Positions 1,252 to 10,772 of a DNA stretch of 36,647 nt are shown here, piece by piece; positions within the stretch are counted from its first letter, which is position 1; every line of letters begins with the position of its first letter. The DNA is from Jiangella aurantiaca. Its GTDB lineage: Bacteria > Actinomycetota > Actinomycetes > Jiangellales > Jiangellaceae. The stretch is from NCBI RefSeq assembly GCF_004349105.1, contig NZ_SMLB01000059.1, positions 1-36,647 on the forward strand, given 5' to 3'. A model generated the notes under the pieces. The model did no database searches. It was not told the origin of the DNA and saw only the letters and a list, made by a program, of their open reading frames with translations. The position numbers were made by a program, and so were the translations under genes.

Positions 1252-3615
1252 TCATTGCTGAGCCATGATCCGAGCCAGCTCCGCCTCGTCGTCTTTGATC
1301 AGCTCACCGGTGACGTCGAACGTGACGGAGTGAAGGATTCCGGTGAACTCGAACGGTGGCTCGTAACCGTCAGCTGCGGGGGCACCGAAGTCATAGCCGC
1401 AGCTCAGTCCCTCGAGTTCGAAGATCAGCGGCGCGGTGTGCGGGAATTCGACGTTGGCGACCAGCTGACTGTCGACGTACAGCTGACCACGTCCTGGCAC
1501 GCCCTTGCCGTTCTTGAAGTCTGGCTGGCCGGTGGGCTCGAACTCGTATCGCAGCGTGTGCCGCCCCTTGGGCACGACGTCCCCGGAGTGCAGCGTGAAC
1601 TGGTCTCGGCCGACGTAGTTGTACGCGTAGTGCAGGCGCCCACCCTCGAGGTAGAAGCTGTAGCCGCCGGCGTCGCCGCCCTGAGCGACCAGGACTCCCT
1701 GGGCGCCCCCGTCGGGGATCTCGACGTCGGCCTCGATGCTGTAGGGGCGGTTGAACACGGGCGGGGCGGCGAACGCGGGCACCACCGCGCCGTTCGGGTA
1801 GTAGACGTAGCGGGTGCGCGGCTTGGACGTCTGCGGACGCTCCGCGGCGAGGCGTGGCTGCAACGAGCCGTCGAGCGGCAGCACCTTGTACTTCTCCGCC
1901 TCGGCCCACCAGGTCGCGATCAGCTCACGCAGTCGCTCGGGGAACTCGGCCGCCACGTCCGTCGCCTCGGTCGGGTCCTCGGCGATGTGGTAGAGCTCCC
2001 AGCCGTCGCGATCGAGCTGGTCGAGGACCTCCGGTGTGATGGCGTCGCCCATCTTGCGGCCGTGTCGCGCCGCCTCGGTGAAGCTGGGGCCCGGCCACGG
2101 GCAGACGGCCCGCCAGCCGTCGTGGTAGATCGAGCGGTGCCCGAACATCTCGAAGTATTGAGTGGTGTGCTTCGTCGGCGCGTCAGCGGCGTCGAAGGTG
2201 TGCGCGAAGCTGACACCCTCCACCGGTGACTGCGTGACACCGCCGATGGTGGCCGGCGCATCGGCGCCGATCGCCTCCAGCACGGTCGGCACCATGTCGA
2301 TGACGTGGGCGTACTGCGTCCGGATCTCGCCTCGGGCCGTCATCCCCGCCGGCCACGCCAGCACGAAGGGATCCGTAGATCCGCCGCGATAGGTCTCTCG
2401 CTTCCAGCGCCGGAAGGGCGTGTTCCCGGCCCAGGTCCAACCCCACGGGTAGTGGTTGTACGCCCTGGTCCCACCGAGGTCGTCGATCTTGGCGAGATTG
2501 TCCTCGAAGCTCTCGGGGACCATGTTGAAGAAGAGCATCTCGTTGAAGGAGCCGGTCGGCCCGCCCTCGGCCGAGGCGCCGTTGTCGGAGACGATCATGA
2601 TGATGGTGTTGTCGAGTTCGCCGATCCGTTCGAGCGTGTCGAGGATGCGGCCGAAGTGGTGGTCGGCGTGCGATAGGAAGCCCGCATACACCTCCATCAT
2701 CCGGGCGTACAACCGGCGCTCGTCGGCCGACAGCGACGTCCACTCCGGCACGTCCGGGTCACGCGGGGAGAGTTCGGAGTCGGCGGCGAAGAGGCCGATC
2801 TGCTTCTGGTTCTCGAACACGGTTTCGCGGTAAGCGTCCCAGCCCATGTCGAACGCACCCGCATACCTGTCGGCCCACTCCTTCGGGACATGGTGCGGAG
2901 CGTGGGCGGCGCCCGTCGCGTAGTACATGAAGAAGGGCTTCTCGGGCGCGTTGACGTGGGCGTCCAGCATGAGTTTGATCGCCTGGTCGGCCAGGTCCTC
3001 ACTCAAGTGGTAGCCGTCCTCCGGCTGCCGCGGCTGTGTGACCGAGCCGTTGTCCTGGGTCAGGTCCGGATACCACTGATTGGTCTCACCGCCGAGGAAG
3101 CCGTAGAAGCGTTCGAACCCGCGCCCCAGGGGCCACCGATGGAACGGTCCGGCCGGCGTGTTGTCCTCTGACGGGGACAAATGCCATTTGCCGAGGCAGA
3201 ATGTGTTGTAGCCGTACTCGACCAGCATCTCCGAGAGCATCCCGTTCTCGAACGGCATGCGGCCGTCGTAGCCGGGATATCCGGTGGCGAGCTCCATGAT
3301 GCACGCGACACCGTTGGAATGATGGTTGCGTCCGGTGAGGATGCTCGACCGTGTGGGAGAGCACAGCGCGGTCGTGTGCATGTTGGCGTAGCGCAGCCCG
3401 GACGCGGCGACCCGATCGATGTTCGGTGTGCTCACGAGGCCCCCGAAACAGCTCAACTGCCCGTACCCCACGTCGTCGAGGACGAAGAACAATACGTTCG
3501 GCGCACCGTCCGGAGCCCGCACCGGTGCCGGCCATGCTGGCGACGAGTCGTCGGCGGTTCGCCCGATACGCCCCGGGAAACGGCTCCCCTGCTCGTACTC
3601 GACGAGATCACTCAT
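1252..3615 (-). CDS. Arylsulfatase, cytosolic 787-aa type
   Basis: Type I sulfatase that hydrolyses sulfate esters using a formylglycine made from cysteine. Residues 38-50 carry the metal-binding NVLFFVLDDVG strand (Asp47, Asp48). The activation motif C-x-P-x-R is at 85-89 (CSPTR), followed by the LTGR element. The catalytic domain runs to about residue 560; the last 200 or so residues look like a beta-rich accessory domain. There is no signal peptide, so it probably acts in the cytosol, like the mycobacterial AtsA/AtsD type of about the same length. I prefer the ATG at 3615 (AGGTGGAAGG just upstream) to the GTG at 3636, which has no ribosome-binding site. No formylglycine-generating enzyme is in the window, so maturation must depend on one encoded elsewhere. 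Likely co-transcribed with the upstream CMD-like gene. Confidence 0.93.
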   Translation of the reverse strand: MSDLVEYEQGSRFPGRIGRTADDSSPAWPAPVRAPDGAPNVLFFVLDDVGYGQLSCFGGLVSTPNIDRVAASGLRYANMHTTALCSPTRSSILTGRNHHSNGVACIMELATGYPGYDGRMPFENGMLSEMLVEYGYNTFCLGKWHLSPSEDNTPAGPFHRWPLGRGFERFYGFLGGETNQWYPDLTQDNGSVTQPRQPEDGYHLSEDLADQAIKLMLDAHVNAPEKPFFMYYATGAAHAPHHVPKEWADRYAGAFDMGWDAYRETVFENQKQIGLFAADSELSPRDPDVPEWTSLSADERRLYARMMEVYAGFLSHADHHFGRILDTLERIGELDNTIIMIVSDNGASAEGGPTGSFNEMLFFNMVPESFEDNLAKIDDLGGTRAYNHYPWGWTWAGNTPFRRWKRETYRGGSTDPFVLAWPAGMTARGEIRTQYAHVIDMVPTVLEAIGADAPATIGGVTQSPVEGVSFAHTFDAADAPTKHTTQYFEMFGHRSIYHDGWRAVCPWPGPSFTEAARHGRKMGDAITPEVLDQLDRDGWELYHIAEDPTEATDVAAEFPERLRELIATWWAEAEKYKVLPLDGSLQPRLAAERPQTSKPRTRYVYYPNGAVVPAFAAPPVFNRPYSIEADVEIPDGGAQGVLVAQGGDAGGYSFYLEGGRLHYAYNYVGRDQFTLHSGDVVPKGRHTLRYEFEPTGQPDFKNGKGVPGRGQLYVDSQLVANVEFPHTAPLIFELEGLSCGYDFGAPAADGYEPPFEFTGILHSVTFDVTGELIKDDEAELARIMAQQ

Positions 3616-3690
3616 CGTGCCTTCCACCTCTTCCACACTTGACGGTCAGCGCCCGGGCAGCTGCGCCGGAACGCCGGCAATGAGCGGACA

Positions 3691-4068
3691 TCAGCCGATC
3701 TCGCCGTCGTCGTCGAGACGTTCCAGTGCGGCGTCGACGTCGTAGCCGACGGCCAGCCCGAGTTTCGGCGCGGCCGACACCAGCCGCTCCACACCGACAG
3801 TGGGCGCCACCGCGATCACTGCGCCCGCGATCTCCTCCACCGTGGCCCCGGAAGCGAACGCCGCATCGACGATCCACTGGTAGGAAGGTGCGCCGGCGTC
3901 CACCGCCAGGAGCGCTCCGAGCTGCACCAGCGCCCGGGTCTTCGGGTCCAGTTTCGACGCGCCGATGTTCTCGAGCCGGATACCCAGCACCGATTCGATG
4001 AACTGCTCGTCGTGCACCGCCAAGCTGCGCAGCACGACTTCGTGGAATCGGTCTTGCCGTGTCACCAT
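3691..4068 (-). CDS. Carboxymuconolactone decarboxylase / AhpD-like fold protein
   Basis: A 125-residue all-helical protein of the CMD family (KTRALVQLGALLAVDAGAPSYQWIVDAAFASGATVEEI core, cited here as residues about 43-81 with the DxKTRAL and GAT.EEI landmarks). CMD proteins include decarboxylases and thiol peroxidases. This one has no CxxC pair and no cysteine at all, so an AhpD-type peroxidase is excluded and its reaction is open. I prefer the ATG at 4068 (GGGAG upstream, and conserved sequence begins there) over upstream in-frame starts. First gene of the minus-strand run into the sulfatase (75-bp gap). It diverges from the antiporter gene across a control region with two 17-bp dyads. Confidence 0.85.
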   Translation of the reverse strand: MVTRQDRFHEVVLRSLAVHDEQFIESVLGIRLENIGASKLDPKTRALVQLGALLAVDAGAPSYQWIVDAAFASGATVEEIAGAVIAVAPTVGVERLVSAAPKLGLAVGYDVDAALERLDDDGEIG

Positions 4069-4152: not shown

Positions 4153-4169
4153 TCATCCGGACCGGATGA
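4153..4169. promoter_or_regulatory. 17-bp dyad TCATCC-N5-GGATGA, copy 1
   Basis: Perfect inverted repeat (TCATCCGG-A-CCGGATGA; arms extend to 8 bases). It lies between the divergent CMD/sulfatase operon (start 4068) and the antiporter (start 4254). Candidate operator of the MalT-like LuxR protein encoded at 7706-10006. Confidence 0.6.
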
Positions 4170-4202
4170 AAAGCGCGGGTGCTCGGTCATGGGGTCGCGG
4201 AT

Positions 4203-4219
4203 TCATCCGGTTCGCATGA
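4203..4219. promoter_or_regulatory. 17-bp dyad, copy 2 (one mismatch)
   Basis: TCATCCGGTTCGCATGA has the same spacing as copy 1 with one change in the right arm (GCATGA for GGATGA). It starts 50 bp from copy 1 and 51 bp before the antiporter GTG. Like copy 4 it is followed by TGCG. Confidence 0.5.
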
Positions 4220-4253
4220 TGCGCTCGTCCGCTCGGGGTGTTCGATTGAACGG

Positions 4254-5555
4254 GTGACAGGGCTCGCCGTGCTCGCCGTGGTGTTCATCGGCTACTCCGC
4301 CGTGGCGGCCCGCTTGGGTCGTTGGTCCATCACCGCGCCGATGGTGTTCATCGCGGCAGGCGCCCTGATCGGCCCGCACGGCCTCGGCATCCTGGACGTC
4401 GCGACCGACGTCGAGGCGGTGAAGATCATCGCCGAGGTGACGCTCGCGCTGATCCTCTTCGCGGACGCCTCCAGCCTCAGATGGAGAGAGGTCCGCCTCG
4501 ACGCGACCCTTCCTGCCCGGCTGCTGTTACTCGGATTCCCCCTCACCGTCCTAGCAGGCGCGATGGCCGGCTGGTGGCTCATCCCCGCAGCCGGCTGGGC
4601 GACCGCGGCACTGGCGGCCAGCATGCTCGCCCCCACGGACGCCGCCCTCGGACTCGGGGTCTTCACCGACCGCTCGGTCCCGGCGCGCATCCGGCGGGCC
4701 CTCAATGTCGAGAGCGGCCTCAACGACGGGCTGGCCACGCCGCTCGTGACGCTTTTCCTGGCGGTCGTCGTGGCCGCGGAGGGGGCCGGTCCGGACGGCT
4801 GGGTCGCCGAATCCGCTCGGGAGCTCGGCACCGCGATCGCGGTTGGCGCCCTCATCGGCCTCGGTGCCGGGCATCTCATCTCCGGTGCACGGCGGCGCGA
4901 ATGGACATCACCGATGTCCGAGCGATTGGCGGTGCTGGCGACGGCGCTGCTGTCCTACACCACCGCGGTGGCGGCCGGCGGCAACGGCTTCGTGGCCGCG
5001 TTCGCCGCGGGCATCCTCTTCGCCTCCGCGTCCGCGGGTCGGCTGCGAGAGGCAACCGAGTTCACCGAGGATCTCGGGCTGTTCGCTTCGTACCTGATCT
5101 GGGCCCTGTTCGGCGCGTTGCTCGTCGCCCCCGTGCTGACCCACGAGATTCATCCGTCAGCGATCGTCTATGCGCTGGTCAGCCTCACCTTGGTGCGGCT
5201 CGTGCCGGTGGCCCTGGCGCTGGCGGGCACCGGCCTGAGACCTGGCTCGATCGCGTTCATGGGATGGTTCGGCCCGAGGGGTCTGGCATCGGTCTTGTTC
5301 ACGCTCATCGTGTTCGAGTCGTTCGAGGCCGGGGGGTTGGCCTCGGAACGGCTCGTCGAAGTGGCCACCTGGACCATCCTGCTGTCGGTCATCGCACATG
5401 GACTGACGGCCGGCCCGCTGGCCGCGGCCTACGGGCGAGCCGTCGCAGACGCTCCCGTCGAGCACCGCGAACCCGCGGCACAGCTGGAGACCCGTGTCCC
5501 CAGGGATCTTTCGGCACGTTCGCCGGAACGAGGTGCCGACGGTGAACCGACGTGA
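4254..5555 (+). CDS. CPA1/NhaP-type cation:proton antiporter
   Basis: A 433-residue protein with about 12 hydrophobic helices. The Na+/H+ exchanger core shows a Pro-Thr-Asp motif at 127-129 (APTDAAL) and an ESGLNDG motif at 153-159; the two aspartates correspond to the ion-binding pair of the NhaP/NHE family. It should exchange cytoplasmic Na+ or K+ for external H+. I chose the GTG at 4254 because the first membrane helix starts right after it; the upstream in-frame GTG at 4179 would add a non-hydrophobic leader that crosses a dyad site. The short C-terminal tail (about 45 residues) is charged and lacks a TrkA-C or CNMP domain. The MscS gene follows after 34 bp, suggesting a joint role in ion and turgor control. 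Confidence 0.9.
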   Translation: MTGLAVLAVVFIGYSAVAARLGRWSITAPMVFIAAGALIGPHGLGILDVATDVEAVKIIAEVTLALILFADASSLRWREVRLDATLPARLLLLGFPLTVLAGAMAGWWLIPAAGWATAALAASMLAPTDAALGLGVFTDRSVPARIRRALNVESGLNDGLATPLVTLFLAVVVAAEGAGPDGWVAESARELGTAIAVGALIGLGAGHLISGARRREWTSPMSERLAVLATALLSYTTAVAAGGNGFVAAFAAGILFASASAGRLREATEFTEDLGLFASYLIWALFGALLVAPVLTHEIHPSAIVYALVSLTLVRLVPVALALAGTGLRPGSIAFMGWFGPRGLASVLFTLIVFESFEAGGLASERLVEVATWTILLSVIAHGLTAGPLAAAYGRAVADAPVEHREPAAQLETRVPRDLSARSPERGADGEPT

Positions 5556-5589
5556 TCCTCGTCAAGTCATCGGCTGAGCGGAGAGTGCG

Positions 5590-6429
5590 ATGACGGAGTT
5601 CGCCGCCGCCGTCGGCGTCATGGACCAGGTCGAAGACTACGTCGCCCGCGCCGACGTCAGCGGCTGGGACGCCCTCTTCGCAGTCGTGACGCTAGCCGGC
5701 GCCTGGTTGCTGTCGAAGGTCACCCGGCGGCTACTGAGCCGCCTCCTCGGACGCGTGGCGGGCATCCCTGACGACGCCAAACGCCTGCTCTCCCGGATGG
5801 GCGGATACGTCGTCATCGTCCTCGGCCTCGCCTACGCACTCTCGCTGCTCGGCGCCGACGTCGCCCCGTTGCTCACAGTCGTGCTGGTCGTCGTGGTCGT
5901 GGTCGCTCTCGCCCTGCGCAGCGTGGCTGAGAACTTCGCCGCCGGCATCGTCCTGCAGACCCGCCGTACGGTTCGGTTCGGCGACGAGATCGCCGCTCTT
6001 GGCCACACGGGCGTCGTGGCGGCGATGAACGGCCGCAGCGTCGTGATCAGGACGGCCGACGGGCGTCAGGTCCACCTGCCGAACGTCAAGCTGCTCGAGG
6101 CACCGGTGGCGAACCACACGATCCTCGGCGCCCGCCGCTCCGAGCTCGTCGCACACATCACTGGCGAGGTGGATGTGGACATCGTGGAGCGAGTGCGTAC
6201 GGCCGTGGCCGGCGCCGACGCGGTCCTCGCCGAGCCGGCACCGGGCGTCTCCACGGTCGAGATCGGCCTCGATCGGCTCAGCCTGACGATCGGCTTCTGG
6301 CACGACCCGCCCGACGGCGCCACCGCCAGCTCCGCCGTGGCCACCGATGTGGCGAAGGCGCTACGGGCCCTTCACCTCGGCTTCGCCCTGGGTCCACCCA
6401 CACCGCACGGTTTCATCCCCATCGGATGA
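5590..6429 (+). CDS. MscS-family mechanosensitive ion channel
   Basis: A 279-residue membrane protein. Three hydrophobic helices (about residues 25-47, 72-90 and 92-115) are followed by the MscS signature: the pore-lining helix runs into SVAENFAAGIVLQTRRTVR, then FGDEI and a beta domain in which DGR..HLPN is recognisable (about residues 155-164). The C-terminal alpha/beta domain is short. Small MscS channels open under membrane tension to release solutes. The start ATG has GGAGAG 6 bases upstream. It follows the antiporter by 34 bp, so they are probably one transcript. The last codons overlap dyad copy 3, so the coding sequence itself holds a possible regulator site for the next gene. Confidence 0.9.
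   Translation: MTEFAAAVGVMDQVEDYVARADVSGWDALFAVVTLAGAWLLSKVTRRLLSRLLGRVAGIPDDAKRLLSRMGGYVVIVLGLAYALSLLGADVAPLLTVVLVVVVVVALALRSVAENFAAGIVLQTRRTVRFGDEIAALGHTGVVAAMNGRSVVIRTADGRQVHLPNVKLLEAPVANHTILGARRSELVAHITGEVDVDIVERVRTAVAGADAVLAEPAPGVSTVEIGLDRLSLTIGFWHDPPDGATASSAVATDVAKALRALHLGFALGPPTPHGFIPIG
6413..6429. promoter_or_regulatory. 17-bp dyad, copy 3 (perfect arms)
   Basis: TCATCC-CCATC-GGATGA ends exactly at the stop codon of the MscS gene and lies 78 bp before the DUF7144 start at 6508. Possible operator for a separate transcript of the following two membrane genes. Confidence 0.5.
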
Positions 6430-6507
6430 TGAGGGATCGGCCGCCGTCTCCTACGTTGACGATCTCGGAGCGAGAACTCTGGGGGACGCATGATCCAGGA
6501 GGAGCGG

Positions 6508-6927
6508 ATGAGCCAGTACCAGGACACGGGGCGAGTCTCAGAGCCGAGAGGCGGGGCCGTCGGCCTCATCGTCTTCGCCGGCACCATGATGATCATGATC
6601 GGGGTGTTCCACATCATCTCCGGTCTGGCCGCCCTGATCGAGGACGACTTCTACGTGACGACTCCGAACCATCTGCTCGAGTTCGACCTCACCACCTGGG
6701 GATGGATCCACCTGATCGCCGGCATCGTCGTGGCGGGGGCCGGCTTCGCGGTGTTCGCCGGGCAGACCTGGGCGCGGGTGGTCGGCATCATGCTGGCGGG
6801 CCTGAGTGCCGTCGCCAACTTCGCCTTCATCCCCTACTACCCCGTATGGTCGCTGTTGATCATCGCCCTCGACGTCTTCGTCATCTGGGCACTGGCGACT
6901 CAAGGCCGCAACGTCGCGCTCGACTGA
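6508..6927 (+). CDS. DUF7144 family membrane protein
   Basis: A 139-residue protein with a short polar N-terminus and four hydrophobic helices. The landmarks shared with the partial protein at 1-348 are GTMMIMIGVFHIISG, TWGWIHLIAG and IIALDVFVIWAL. The start at 6508 has a strong AGGAGGAG (6497-6504) at good distance; an upstream in-frame ATG at 6490 has no comparable site. Family function is unknown. It sits downstream of dyad copy 3 and upstream of a hairpin and the 236-aa membrane protein. Two paralogues flanking the same stress-type island suggest a shared role in envelope or ion homeostasis (inference). Confidence 0.85.
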   Translation: MSQYQDTGRVSEPRGGAVGLIVFAGTMMIMIGVFHIISGLAALIEDDFYVTTPNHLLEFDLTTWGWIHLIAGIVVAGAGFAVFAGQTWARVVGIMLAGLSAVANFAFIPYYPVWSLLIIALDVFVIWALATQGRNVALD

Positions 6928-6959
6928 GCGCCGTGCCGGGCCGCGGGGGCGGCGGGCCG

Positions 6960-6988
6960 TCAGCCCGGTACCCTCGCGGCCGGGCTGA
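6960..6988 (+). terminator. GC-rich hairpin next to the ribosome-binding site of the 6999 gene
   Basis: Arms TCAGCCCGG (6960-6968) and CCGGGCTGA (6980-6988) are perfectly complementary with an 11-base loop. The right arm overlaps the first bases of the GAGGAG Shine-Dalgarno (6987-6992) of the next gene. It could act as an intrinsic terminator or attenuator after DUF7144, or limit translation of the next gene. Confidence 0.5.
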
Positions 6989-6998
6989 GGAGCCGACG

Positions 6999-7709
6999 GT
7001 GACCAGCGACACCCCGCTCGAACGCCATCGATCTCTCCGGCGAGCCGCGTTGCTGACCGCGGGCCTGGGTGCGGCGCATGCGGTCCTGTTGCTGCTCTCG
7101 TACGCACTGCTGTCAGGCGTACCCGAGCCGGACTCATCCGACGCCGAGATCGTCGCCTTCTACAGCTCGAGCGACCGGAGACTGCTCGTGCTCGTCGGCC
7201 TCTACCTGATGCCGTTCGCCGGGATCGCCTTCCTGTGGTTCATCGTGGCCCTGCGGACCTGGATCGCCCATTCGGTGGCGCGGGAGAACGCCCTGATCTC
7301 CAATGTCCAACTGGTCAGCGGCATCGTCTTCATCGCGCTGTTCTTCGCCGGCGCGGGCGCCACGGCGACCCTGGCCACCAGCGTCGAGTTCGCGGACGCC
7401 CAGATCGATCCGGTGACGGCTCGCCAGTTCCCCCAGTACGGCAACTCCCTGCTGTTCGTCTTCGCCATGCGGATGGCCGCCATGTTCGTCATCACCACAT
7501 CGAAGATCGGTCGGAGCGCGGGAATCCTGCCGCGCTGGTTCACGTGGACCGGCTTCGGCGTCGGGCTGTTCCTGCTGCTGAGCGTCTCGTTCTACCCCGC
7601 CCTGGTCGTGGTGTTCCCAGTCTGGCTGCTGATGCTCAGCGGCCTCCTGCTCCTTCGAGCACGCCGCATCCCGGTCGACGCGGCCCTCACCCGCGTCCAG
7701 CCCCGTTAG
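6999..7709 (+). CDS. Uncharacterised six-helix membrane protein
   Basis: A 236-residue protein starting at GTG 6999 with GAGGAG 6 bases upstream. The open frame extends back to 6426, but that part is out-of-frame shadow of DUF7144. About six hydrophobic helices are visible (roughly residues 15-38, 61-84, 97-121, 146-166, 175-193, 195-216), with an extracytoplasmic-looking acidic loop after helix 1 (PEPDSSDAEIVAFYSSS) and a second loop between helices 3 and 4. It resembles conserved actinobacterial hypothetical membrane proteins, but I cannot name a domain. It ends with a 4-bp stop-stop overlap with the convergent LuxR regulator. Its place at the end of the antiporter-MscS-DUF7144 run suggests membership in the same stress group (inference). 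Confidence 0.75.
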   Translation: MTSDTPLERHRSLRRAALLTAGLGAAHAVLLLLSYALLSGVPEPDSSDAEIVAFYSSSDRRLLVLVGLYLMPFAGIAFLWFIVALRTWIAHSVARENALISNVQLVSGIVFIALFFAGAGATATLATSVEFADAQIDPVTARQFPQYGNSLLFVFAMRMAAMFVITTSKIGRSAGILPRWFTWTGFGVGLFLLLSVSFYPALVVVFPVWLLMLSGLLLLRARRIPVDAALTRVQPR

Positions 7710-10006
7710 TCCTCGAGCAGGCCGATGTCGCGAGCTCTGAGGACCGCGTCGGTGCGAGCCGAGACGCTCAGCTTGCGATAGATGGAGATGGCCTGGGACT
7801 TGATCGTGTTGGGCGACAGGTGGAAGCGTTCACCGATCTCACGGAACGACAAGTGCGTCGGCAGGTAGGACAGCAACCTGAGCTCGGCGGCGGTCAATGA
7901 CGTCGGTCCTGGAACACCACGTACCTGGAACTGACCGAGACGGCGTTGCAGCTCGCCGAGCTGGTCCCCGAGGGTGCCCAGGTCGGGCACCCTGGCCACG
8001 ATGTCGCGGGCGTCGGCGAGCAGAGTCCACGCTCCGGCCCGATCGGACAGTGCGAGCTGCACCTGGGCCAGCTCGATCATCGTCTGGGCCGCGAGCCACG
8101 GGATGGCACGGGTGAGCATGGGACGCAACCGGTGAGCCCGGATGACCTCCTGCTGGGCGAGGAGCACGTTCCCGCTGTGAAGAGCCGTCCGCGCCACCAC
8201 GGCGAAGGTGATCGAGCTCGGCAGGTAGGTCTCGAGACCGCCGCGCTCGACCGTGATTCGGGCGCGACGTGTCAGCGTCTCGGCAGCGGTCCAGTCACCC
8301 CGGCTCATGGCAGCGAGGGACCGCTCGGCGAGAGCAAGCGACGACATGGGGAACGCATCGATCCGTTCGGCGGCCTCGACGGCATCGGCCAGGATCGCGT
8401 CTGCCTGCTCAGCGTCGCCGGCCAGCAGGGTGCTTGCGCCGTAGAGCATCAGGGCGGCCGGGCGCCAGGGGCCGGCCTCCGGCTCCAGGCGCACCGCCGC
8501 CTGGGCGTCCTTCCGCATCTGGTCCACGCCGCGCCGGCACGTCAGGGCATGCAGCAGGTGCAGGGTCGAGACGGCCGTGGTGCCGCCGTGCGGCGGACTC
8601 GTGGCGCAGCTCCGCTCGGCGAGATCGGCCCACCATGCCGCACCGATGGCGTCACCGGTCAGGGCGGCCGTCCACCCGGCCAGCACGGCCAGGGACGGGT
8701 GCCGTTCCATCACCTTCTCGTCGAACCTGTCGAGCCAGGCTCGTAGGGTGTCGAGCCGGCTCGTGCGGTACAGCTGCAGCGCCAACTGCTCGAGCAGCAG
8801 CGCAGCGCGGTCTTCGTCACCGGCGGCCCAGGCGTGGTGAAGGGCCTCCTCGTGCATGCCCTGCCGCTCGAACCAGTCGGCCGCCCTACTGTGCAGGACC
8901 GGCGCCACGCCGGGCCGTCGTGAGGTCAGCTCGGTGAGGAGCACGTCGCGGAACAGATGGTGATATCGGTACCACTCGCGGTGGTGATCGAGTGGCAAGA
9001 GGAACAGCTGGGAGTCCTCGGCCGACCCGAGGAGCTGCGACGACCCGGAGCGCTGGAGAACCGCGTCACACAGCGATCCGCACATCCGGTCCAGGATCGC
9101 GGTGTGGGTGAGGAAGCGGACCAGGTCGCCCGGTAGCTGGGCGAGCACCTCAGCCTGGACGTAGTCGGCCACGAACCGATCGCTGCCCGCGAAGGCCGGG
9201 CCCAGCGGTCGCGTGTGTCCGCCCGCCGCGAGGGACAGCGCGGCCAGGCACAGCCCGGCCGGCCATCCCTCCGTCCGGCGGGTGAGCTCCGCCATCGCCT
9301 CGTCCGGGAGGTCCACCCCGGCGTTCCGGAGCAGCGTCCGTGCCTCAGTGGCATCGAGGGCCAGGTCAGACACGTCGATCTCGGCCAGCACGCCGTTGGC
9401 GCGCCACCGTGCCAGCGGCAGGCCGGGAACGGTTCGCGAGGTGACGGCCAGCTGCGAGCCGGACGGAAGCCGCTGAGCGAGCTCGGCGATGGCATCCAGG
9501 CACGCGTGTTCGACGAGGCTGTGCACGTCGTCGAGCAACAGGACCACCGGTGTCGTCATGGCGGCCAGCGCCGAACCCAACCGGGGAAGCACCGTCGACA
9601 TCACCGAGCCGCTGCGGGACGCGAGGGCGGTGAACACCGTCGGCGGGAGCGGCTCGATGCGGTCCAGGGCGACTGCGACATGGCTGAGCAGCCCGACCGG
9701 GTCGTTGTCGCCGCCGTCGAGCGAAACCCACGCGACAGGCCTGTTCTCCACCCGGCTCCACTCGCTGAGCAGGGTCGTCTTGCCGTATCCGGCCGCGGCA
9801 TGGATCGCAACGACAGGTGCCGCGGACCTGCTGAGCCGGTCGATCAGGGTGCGCCTGGACACGTTCCCGGCGCGCGGCGGCGGCGCGTGCAGCTTGGACT
9901 CGATGACGTCGACCTGTGGGCTCCCGCCCAGCACCGGCGCCGTGGAGAGGCGGCGCAGCGAATCACGCGAGGACGCCGACGCGTGGGACACTTGCAGACC
10001 GCTCAT
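7706..10006 (-). CDS. MalT-like LuxR-family ATPase transcription regulator
   Basis: A 766-residue signal-transduction ATPase of the MalT/LAL type. Order of parts: N-terminal SKLHAP motif typical of the class (about 37-42), Walker A AAGYGKTT (71-78), Walker B VVLLLDDVH, a winged-helix/arm region, a TPR-rich central part (about 400-680) and a C-terminal LuxR helix-turn-helix in the last 65 residues (LTAAELRLL...SFREIGERFHLS.NTIKSQ). Such proteins bind ATP plus a small inducer, oligomerise and activate promoters carrying GGATGA-type boxes. I prefer ATG 10006 (GGGGAGG at good spacing) to the upstream in-frame ATG at 10054. Two dyads sit in its promoter region, suggesting autoregulation. The inducer is unknown. 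It probably controls the surrounding sulfatase/antiporter/MscS genes. Confidence 0.9.
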   Translation of the reverse strand: MSGLQVSHASASSRDSLRRLSTAPVLGGSPQVDVIESKLHAPPPRAGNVSRRTLIDRLSRSAAPVVAIHAAAGYGKTTLLSEWSRVENRPVAWVSLDGGDNDPVGLLSHVAVALDRIEPLPPTVFTALASRSGSVMSTVLPRLGSALAAMTTPVVLLLDDVHSLVEHACLDAIAELAQRLPSGSQLAVTSRTVPGLPLARWRANGVLAEIDVSDLALDATEARTLLRNAGVDLPDEAMAELTRRTEGWPAGLCLAALSLAAGGHTRPLGPAFAGSDRFVADYVQAEVLAQLPGDLVRFLTHTAILDRMCGSLCDAVLQRSGSSQLLGSAEDSQLFLLPLDHHREWYRYHHLFRDVLLTELTSRRPGVAPVLHSRAADWFERQGMHEEALHHAWAAGDEDRAALLLEQLALQLYRTSRLDTLRAWLDRFDEKVMERHPSLAVLAGWTAALTGDAIGAAWWADLAERSCATSPPHGGTTAVSTLHLLHALTCRRGVDQMRKDAQAAVRLEPEAGPWRPAALMLYGASTLLAGDAEQADAILADAVEAAERIDAFPMSSLALAERSLAAMSRGDWTAAETLTRRARITVERGGLETYLPSSITFAVVARTALHSGNVLLAQQEVIRAHRLRPMLTRAIPWLAAQTMIELAQVQLALSDRAGAWTLLADARDIVARVPDLGTLGDQLGELQRRLGQFQVRGVPGPTSLTAAELRLLSYLPTHLSFREIGERFHLSPNTIKSQAISIYRKLSVSARTDAVLRARDIGLLED

Positions 10007-10113
10007 CGCCACCTCCCCGTCATGCAGTGGACGAGCCGCCGCCAGAATCAGCATGCGTTCCAGAGGGCGGGTCCGGCCTCACCCGCTCTGGGTGAAGCCG
10101 GCGCACGGGTCTT

Positions 10114-10130
10114 TCATCCCGGTCGGATGA
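10114..10130. promoter_or_regulatory. 17-bp dyad, copy 4 (perfect arms)
   Basis: TCATCC-CGGTC-GGATGA, followed by TGCG as in copy 2. It is 108 bp upstream of the LuxR start (10006) and 223 bp before the plus-strand gene at 10353. Confidence 0.55.
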
Positions 10131-10151
10131 TGCGACCAACCCGGTGTGGCG

Positions 10152-10168
10152 TCATCGTGGTCGCATGA
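10152..10168. promoter_or_regulatory. 17-bp dyad, copy 5 (degenerate)
   Basis: TCATCG-TGGTC-GCATGA keeps the outer TCAT...ATGA at identical spacing, with one change per arm. It lies 38 bp after copy 4, making a pair like copies 1 and 2. Confidence 0.35.
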
Positions 10169-10352: not shown

Positions 10353-10772
10353 ATGAAAGCCGTGTTGATCGCATTGCTCGTCGTCCTCGGCGTGGATCTG
10401 ACCGCCGTCGTAGCGCTCGGGGCGCTTGTGCTCGGACGTAAGCGGTGGCTCAGACGGCGGCCAGGCCATTTCGTCGGGGCGATTCGAGGCGTGAGTGGCA
10501 ACGTCGACGGGCTCGCCAGCACATGGCGACGCGGCTGCGGCCGCTGGGTCTCCAACGTCCTCGTCTGGAACAAGGCACCATTCATGTTCCGCAATGTCTT
10601 CGTACCAGTCGACTGCCTCGCCGGGGAACGTCGTGCGCACTCCGGCGAGGTCAAGCGGCTGGGCGACACACCGATCGTCATCGAGCTCGTCTCGGGCGCC
10701 GCCGTGATCGAGGTCGCGACGAGGCCCGGAGACCGCACCCTCGCGACGGGTCCGATGACAACGCCCGTCTGA
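10353..10772 (+). CDS. Single-pass membrane protein, DUF2550-like
   Basis: A 139-residue protein with one N-terminal hydrophobic helix (residues 3-28), then a basic stretch (GRKRWLRRR) and a soluble domain of about 100 residues predicted to be cytoplasmic. Helix, basic motif and a domain of short strands with a WRRG..RW segment resemble the actinobacterial DUF2550 family, but the match is by eye and weak. The start ATG is preceded by GGGAAGGG. It is divergent from the LuxR regulator, with the dyad pair in the shared upstream region, so it may be a regulon member. It ends 58 bp before the convergent aldolase gene. Confidence 0.6.
   Translation: MKAVLIALLVVLGVDLTAVVALGALVLGRKRWLRRRPGHFVGAIRGVSGNVDGLASTWRRGCGRWVSNVLVWNKAPFMFRNVFVPVDCLAGERRAHSGEVKRLGDTPIVIELVSGAAVIEVATRPGDRTLATGPMTTPV

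Follow-up and report, generated by a model that had tools for sequence, protein, structure and literature searches.

In Jiangella aurantiaca, a 17-base inverted repeat, TCATCC-N5-GGATGA, recurs within a cluster of sulfatase, ion-transport and LuxR-type regulator genes. What does this dyad do, and which protein reads it? A first-pass annotation had proposed, from sequence alone, that it is the site of a MalT-like activator. We determined the sites, their rarity, their conservation, their promoter geometry and their gene associations by computation, in the window (the whole stretch of 36,647 nucleotides that was analyzed), in the assembly to which it belongs and in related genomes. Very probably, a MalT-like regulator uses the dyads to switch on genes for sulfatase, ion transport and small membrane proteins. 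Beyond this, we infer that the regulator encoded at the locus binds them, that it activates transcription in this organism and that it answers to an inducer; on our reading of the gene set, the regulon would couple the use of sulfate esters to ion and envelope homeostasis.

A rare inverted repeat in the control regions of one locus

Perfect copies of the dyad lie at 4153-4169, 6413-6429 and 10114-10130 (n = 3), where the first-pass annotation had placed them. It had also described the copies as confined to the 4.1-10.2 kb section and as exceeding chance, and both statements hold: all six window sites with two or fewer mismatches fall in that section, and 100 dinucleotide shuffles of the window yielded 0 perfect copies. 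Its two degenerate copies exist, at 4203-4219 (one mismatch, 50 bp from the 4153 dyad) and 10152-10168 (two mismatches), but the latter may not be a fifth operator, because it overlaps a -10-like CATCGT (10153-10158) in register with the 10114 dyad on the plus strand. The copies listed were real, but a perfect TCACCC-N5-GGGTGA at 10079-10095 (minus strand), two mismatches from the TCATCC-N5-GGATGA spelling, had been overlooked; it is the site closest to the LuxR gene, and the 10114 dyad lies 35 bp past it.

The 4153 dyad sits between two divergent operons. On the minus strand, genes for a carboxymuconolactone decarboxylase (CMD) family protein (3691-4068; Pfam PF02627, 2.2e-7) and a sulfatase (1252-3636; PF00884, 9.7e-61; start uncertain) probably share one operon. 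On the plus strand, the ORF of a Na+/H+ exchanger-family antiporter (4254-5555; PF00999, 9.3e-46) is followed after 34 bp by that of an MscS-type mechanosensitive channel (5590-6429; PF00924, 7.1e-14). The channel gene, which the first-pass annotation had tied to the same activator, has no dyad of its own. The 6413 dyad (plus strand) overlaps the last codons and the stop of the MscS ORF and precedes a gene for a DUF7144 small protein (6490-6927, plus strand; PF23636, 4.8e-49). An ORF at 6999-7709 (plus strand), which has no Pfam or NCBIfam match and looks hydrophobic by eye, and the LuxR gene (7706-10006, minus strand) complete the section. Gene calls, here and in the other regions, come from a crude script of ours, as do the starts of the CMD, antiporter and LuxR genes. 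Further to the right, an ORF at 10353-10772 (plus strand), with a weak coding score and no Pfam match, lies 3' of a possible rightward promoter at 10114; it may or may not be a gene.

Across the whole assembly (6,620,775 bases, 102 contigs), the window copies are the only strict TCATCC-N5-GGATGA sites (reversed control, 0), and none was found in the 11 other genomes of the genus that were searched. The generalized form TCAYCC-N5-GGRTGA occurs 11 times (reversed control, 0), with four sites in the window (contig C57), six at C69:1531-9850 and one at C72:7384, the last having a -10-like element in register toward a PLDcN-SHOCT gene. Ten of the 11 sit in two LuxR-containing clusters. The dyad is thus not scattered through the genome in either form, and on the shuffles, the scan and the empty control we rejected chance as its origin.

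The C69 cluster (G000:C69:1531-9850, region L057) forms another MalT-like regulon of this genome. Its six sites are all spelled TCACCC-N5-GGGTGA, and its genes encode LuxR, PLDcN-SHOCT, ion channel, DUF6325, SulP and DUF6069 proteins.

A MalT-like regulator encoded beside the repeats

The Pfam, NCBIfam and PDB matches of the 7706-10006 protein agree with the earlier claim that the locus encodes a MalT-like LuxR regulator. Judged by its sequence, this protein has the LAL/STAND architecture, with a predicted N-terminal STAND-type NTPase, a MalT-like TPR middle part and a C-terminal GerE helix-turn-helix. In Pfam, the GerE domain scores above its cut-off; AAA_16 and TPR_MalT match below theirs. 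A P-loop, AAAGYGKTT, can be read in the protein, which matches the solved MalT chain 8bob_C (PDB) at 4e-36. We rejected its assignment as an equivalog of E. coli MalT: NCBIfam PRK04841 (the MalT equivalog) reaches 279.1 bits over residues 50-604 where 537 are required, and direct repeats of the half-site, as the MalT box would have them, show no favored spacing. The closest relative found, with 67% identity, is encoded in Phytoactinopolyspora endophytica (Jiangellaceae).

Conservation and distribution among actinobacteria

The dyad is conserved upstream of orthologues in P. endophytica. The contig of this locus (L034), from a genome (G017) classed in the window's family, encodes a sulfatase (43% identity) and a DUF7144 protein (46%) in a gene order different from that of the window. 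TCATCCCCATCGGGTGA lies upstream of the sulfatase gene, two one-mismatch dyads 43 bp apart precede the DUF7144 gene, and TCACCC-N5-GGGTGA precedes the LuxR gene; a further dyad stands before a PLDcN-SHOCT gene and another at 9724. The LuxR-proximal dyads align together with their downstream sequence (window 10079 with L034 9925). The consensus is therefore better written TCAYCC-N5-GGRTGA. The spelling TCATCC-N5-GGATGA given in the first-pass annotation is genuine, but a regulon defined strictly by it would be too narrow, base 4 of the half-site being C or T. Adjoining the 9724 dyad, at L034:9480-9660 (minus strand), there is a by-eye hint of a broken SfLAP-like gene.

The generalized dyad occurs in 18 of the 22 genomes of the family, with up to 19 copies (reversed control, 0 or 1). 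Within the class, TCACCC-N5-GGGTGA was found in 188 of 393 genomes, with up to 18 copies (control, at most 2), many of the low counts probably being due to chance; strict TCATCC-N5-GGATGA was found in 58 of the 393, at no more than two copies save in this genome, and its frequency outside this genome looks near chance expectation. In clusters from families f1, f8, f17 and f26, dyads lie near MalT-like LuxR genes and upstream of a recurring set of genes: DUF7144, DUF6325, DUF6069, PLDcN-SHOCT, SulP permeases, SfLAP proteins, sulfatases, an alkyl sulfatase and an ion channel. Genes were labeled with Pfam in the window, L034, L057 and L059-L061, and with our own small HMMs in the other regions.

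Comparison of the helix-turn-helix domains separates a dyad-rich long group of LuxR proteins, with the recognition helix NTVKTH, from a short group that includes the window protein, with NTIKSQ and relatives; this split rests on visual inspection of the list of helix-turn-helix sequences, region by region.

Position relative to promoters and genes

In 25 regions with 108 distinct dyads, no dyad lies well within a called gene (20 nt margin); under a stricter overlap rule 3 of 52 dyads in 11 regions touch one. The dyads also keep a fixed distance from a -10-like element. The pattern AnnnT, placed so that its A falls at +32 or +33 relative to the dyad centre, accompanies 102 of 139 oriented sites (25 regions). 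After de-duplication with a 60% similarity filter, which corrects only partly since many rows are orthologues, it accompanies 78 of 110, compared with 4.6 +/- 2.0 in 1000 shuffles (maximum 12), and AnnnT at any other offset reaches at most seven in this reduced set. Called gene starts peak at +44 from the dyad centre (10 of 139), which fits leaderless transcripts. The spacer is strict: 107 inverted repeats are at N5 and at most three at each other spacing from 0 to 30, in a count that takes in both L059 and L060, which overlap. Direct repeats of GGRTGA show no spacing peak, with at most six at any spacer of 0-30. Together, the fixed distance to AnnnT and the strict N5 correspond to the arrangement of a promoter whose activator stands in for the -35 element.

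Within the window, starts are predicted from this register for the 6413 dyad (plus strand; TACGTT at 6452-6457, A at +32), the 10079 dyad (minus strand; CATGCT at 10050-10055, A at +33) and the 10114 dyad (plus strand); for the first two they would fall at about 6464 and about 10043, respectively. No AnnnT is in register with the 4153 dyad in either direction or with the 4203 dyad, which is a point against reading the dyads as activator sites. The antiporter GTG at 4254 lies 43 nt from the centre of the 4203 dyad and, given this distance, is a possible leaderless start.

At single-site loci the register depends on the family, being present at 15 of 16 sites in f1 and 5 of 8 in f36, at 1 of 16 in f18 (1.1 expected), and at none in f33 (0 of 3), f8 (0 of 2), f3 (0 of 2), f43 (0 of 1) and f44 (0 of 1). 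Hence the dyad cannot be taken as meaningful in all lineages. Seven regions (L177-L180, L184, L185 and L186) were fetched because they held strict sites; L185 and L186 have no LuxR gene of the MalT-like kind, and the dyad at L185:8998 falls inside a called gene. One genome of family f40 (G168; L066 and L118) has eleven generalized dyads across 4.2 Mb (control, 0), and the two of them that were examined both have a -10-like element in register. These dyads are not clustered, and the regulator in that genome is therefore perhaps a more global one.

The dyad is associated with particular genes as well. In the long-group set (18 regions; L058, L128, L129, L138 and L139 omitted), a site with at most one mismatch stands 20-300 nt upstream of 82 of the 106 recurring-family genes that lead an operon and of 46 of 121 others (Fisher 2e-9); with perfect sites the counts are 75 of 106 and 35 of 121. 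In the short-group set (14 regions; L143, L146, L183 and L184-L186 omitted), sites with at most one mismatch precede 27 of 56 recurring-family genes and 21 of 86 others (p 0.004), and perfect sites show no clear difference (12 of 56 vs 13 of 86). All these comparisons are partly circular, because the families were named from dyad neighbors in some of the same regions.

Relation to known MalT-like systems

The proposal of a MalT-like activator site is supported by a published system. In Actinoplanes sp. SE50/110, Droste et al. (2020) described a region of 51 genes in which 17 start sites are preceded by 5'-TCATCC-5nt-GGATGA-3'; deletion of malT (ACSP50_3915) lowered the expression of 42 of the 51 genes, overexpression raised that of 39, and the motif is also present in four related species (PMC7567727). 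The first-pass proposal was therefore right in kind and already in print for another genus. In Actinoplanes, as here, the same dyad stands upstream of several operons of one locus, a MalT-like LuxR is encoded within the region and gene order is shuffled among relatives. The motif end lies 34.4 +/- 1.0 nt from the start site there, and about 35 nt is predicted here from the -10 register (PMC7567727). The Actinoplanes region differs in its 51 genes, some of them for arginine and amino acids; the main text of that paper mentions neither sulfatase nor SulP and has no gel-shift or footprint terms, and the spelling it describes is the T form (PMC7567727).

The likeness to the E. coli MalT box, also pointed out in the first-pass annotation, extends to the half-site, GGATGA being the core GGA(T/G)GA with T at its variable position, in the box that is quoted as GGGGA(T/G)GAGG (PMC7567727), but not to the arrangement. 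E. coli MalT shares the STAND-type NTPase, the C-terminal LuxR helix-turn-helix and a site that overlaps the -35 region; here, by contrast, two half-sites form an inverted repeat with a 5-base spacer and not direct repeats, and no maltose genes were seen among the Pfam-matched genes of the locus. A MalT-like LuxR acting on palindromes is also known from Streptomyces coelicolor, where the LAL SCO6993 binds them in gel shifts and footprints, including at its own promoter (PMC9628970). This protein differs in being described as a repressor, and its sites are, according to the authors, without a common consensus (PMC9628970); nor do they resemble the TCAYCC dyad.

We regard the window dyads as true operators of a regulon under a MalT-like activator. 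This regulon is of the Actinoplanes MalT kind but lies in the family to which Phytoactinopolyspora belongs, and it is set apart by a broader consensus and by its genes. The surprise is limited, because the core motif and the activator role are published for Actinoplanes. No other report on the dyad, on its C spelling or on a link to SulP, sulfatase or DUF7144 was among the matches listed in a literature search that left subscription journals mostly outside its scope. Apparently unreported are the spread over families, the sulfatase/SulP/DUF gene set and a C/T half-site preference that tracks the two LuxR groups.

Which regulator reads the dyads

We consider it likely that a MalT-like LuxR activator (LAL, STAND-type) uses the dyads as its operators. 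The most probable candidate is the 7706-10006 protein, which would act at the CMD/sulfatase, antiporter/MscS and DUF7144 operons as well as at the promoter of its own gene. Inducer and ATP would cause the regulator to multimerize, and its paired helix-turn-helix domains would bind the inverted repeat TCAYCC-N5-GGRTGA. The dyad would then be centred about 43-44 bp upstream of the transcription start, in the position of the -35 box, from which the bound activator could recruit RNA polymerase to a weak -10 (nAnnnT). Pairs of dyads 35-50 bp apart may aid assembly.

Dyads are also found at other loci with LuxR proteins like that of the window. Eight regions fetched as window-like LuxR loci (L140-L147) hold 14 sites with at most one mismatch, compared with about 1.25 in mononucleotide shuffles; five of the 14 belong to three loci (L006, L040 and L048) already seen with one-mismatch sites. 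Many of the sites lie upstream of DUF7144, DUF6325, SHOCT or sulfatase genes, and two of the eight regions have none. Three further regions, L181, L182 and L183, hold two, one and no sites, respectively. The -10 register is present at 35 of 59 oriented sites of short-group loci, compared with 2.7 expected, and at 10 of 21 sites, by hand count, in L140-L147, L181 and L182 only.

Two points count against the local protein. Its recognition helix, as read from the sequence, is NTIKSQ, not the NTVKTH of the dyad-rich group, and the gene association in short-group regions is modest and not visible with perfect sites. Helix letters alone do not decide the matter, however, since the LuxR proteins of L046 and L048 have NTVKTH, yet no perfect dyad is found nearby. 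Long-group proteins in L014, L030 and one of the two in L137 likewise have no dyad within 2.5 kb. Palindromes upstream of 17 LuxR genes that lack clear dyads revealed no shared alternative operator.

Other binders were weighed against the 7706-10006 protein. The main alternative is the paralogous LAL of contig C69, which could bind the window dyads in trans, instead of or beside the local LuxR, making the window locus and its LuxR a downstream branch of the C69 regulon. That protein belongs to the dyad-rich group and is encoded among six dyads of the same family, P. endophytica (G017) has both kinds of locus too, and the window protein departs from the group at the recognition helix. We hold this reading rather improbable, and the spelling of the sites counts against it: three of the four window sites have the T form, whereas all seven elsewhere in the genome have the C form. 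The same bias holds more widely, base 4 being T in 21 of 38 half-sites at short-group loci but in 6 of 178 at long-group loci; with the window and the regions fetched for T sites removed, the contrast is 4 of 12 vs 6 of 178 (p 0.0016), the reduced C/T half-site counts (10:10 and 4:8) having been taken by hand from the listed sites. That T half-sites track window-like loci favors the local LuxR as the predicted binder, without proving it.

An unrelated transcription factor encoded elsewhere, with the LuxR genes merely among its targets, seems very unlikely. Some genomes do have in-register dyads that are untraced to a LuxR gene, such as both sites examined in G168, but dyad clusters center on MalT-like LuxR genes in several families, and deletion and overexpression of malT in Actinoplanes alter transcription of the dyad-bearing region (PMC7567727). 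We give least credence of all to the view that the dyads are repeats due to chance or act as RNA hairpins or terminators. Folding is conceivable for a 6-bp inverted repeat around a loop of 5 bases, and the strict spelling is as sparse in the class as noted above, near what chance would give; against this stand the empty shuffles of the window and the placement of the dyads upstream of starts or between divergent genes, at a fixed distance from a -10-like element.

A possible promoter code shared by two regulator groups

Tentatively, we suggest that one promoter code is common to several actinobacterial families, with TCAYCC-N5-GGRTGA centred at -43/-44 and followed by a weak -10, and that two diverged groups of MalT-like regulators read it. 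The two regulons would be kept separate in one cell by base 4, changed from C to T in both half-sites alike. Both would activate an uncharacterized program that covers hydrolysis of sulfate esters, transport of sulfate and small membrane proteins (DUF7144, DUF6325, DUF6069, SHOCT). Such an operator and promoter code would make a large, mostly orphan class of ATP-dependent regulators readable, and would place DUF7144, DUF6325, DUF6069 and SHOCT/PLDc_N proteins alongside sulfatases and SulP transporters in regulons open to sequence searches. With the C/T split of the half-site, the divergence of DNA specificity between paralogues of a single genome can be tested directly. Skewed one-mismatch dyads, TCAC(G/T)CAG...GG(G/A)TGA, at L145:4478, L147:1744 and L144:10326, precede DUF6325, DUF7144 and a LuxR/CMD gene pair, and are perhaps a third operator spelling.
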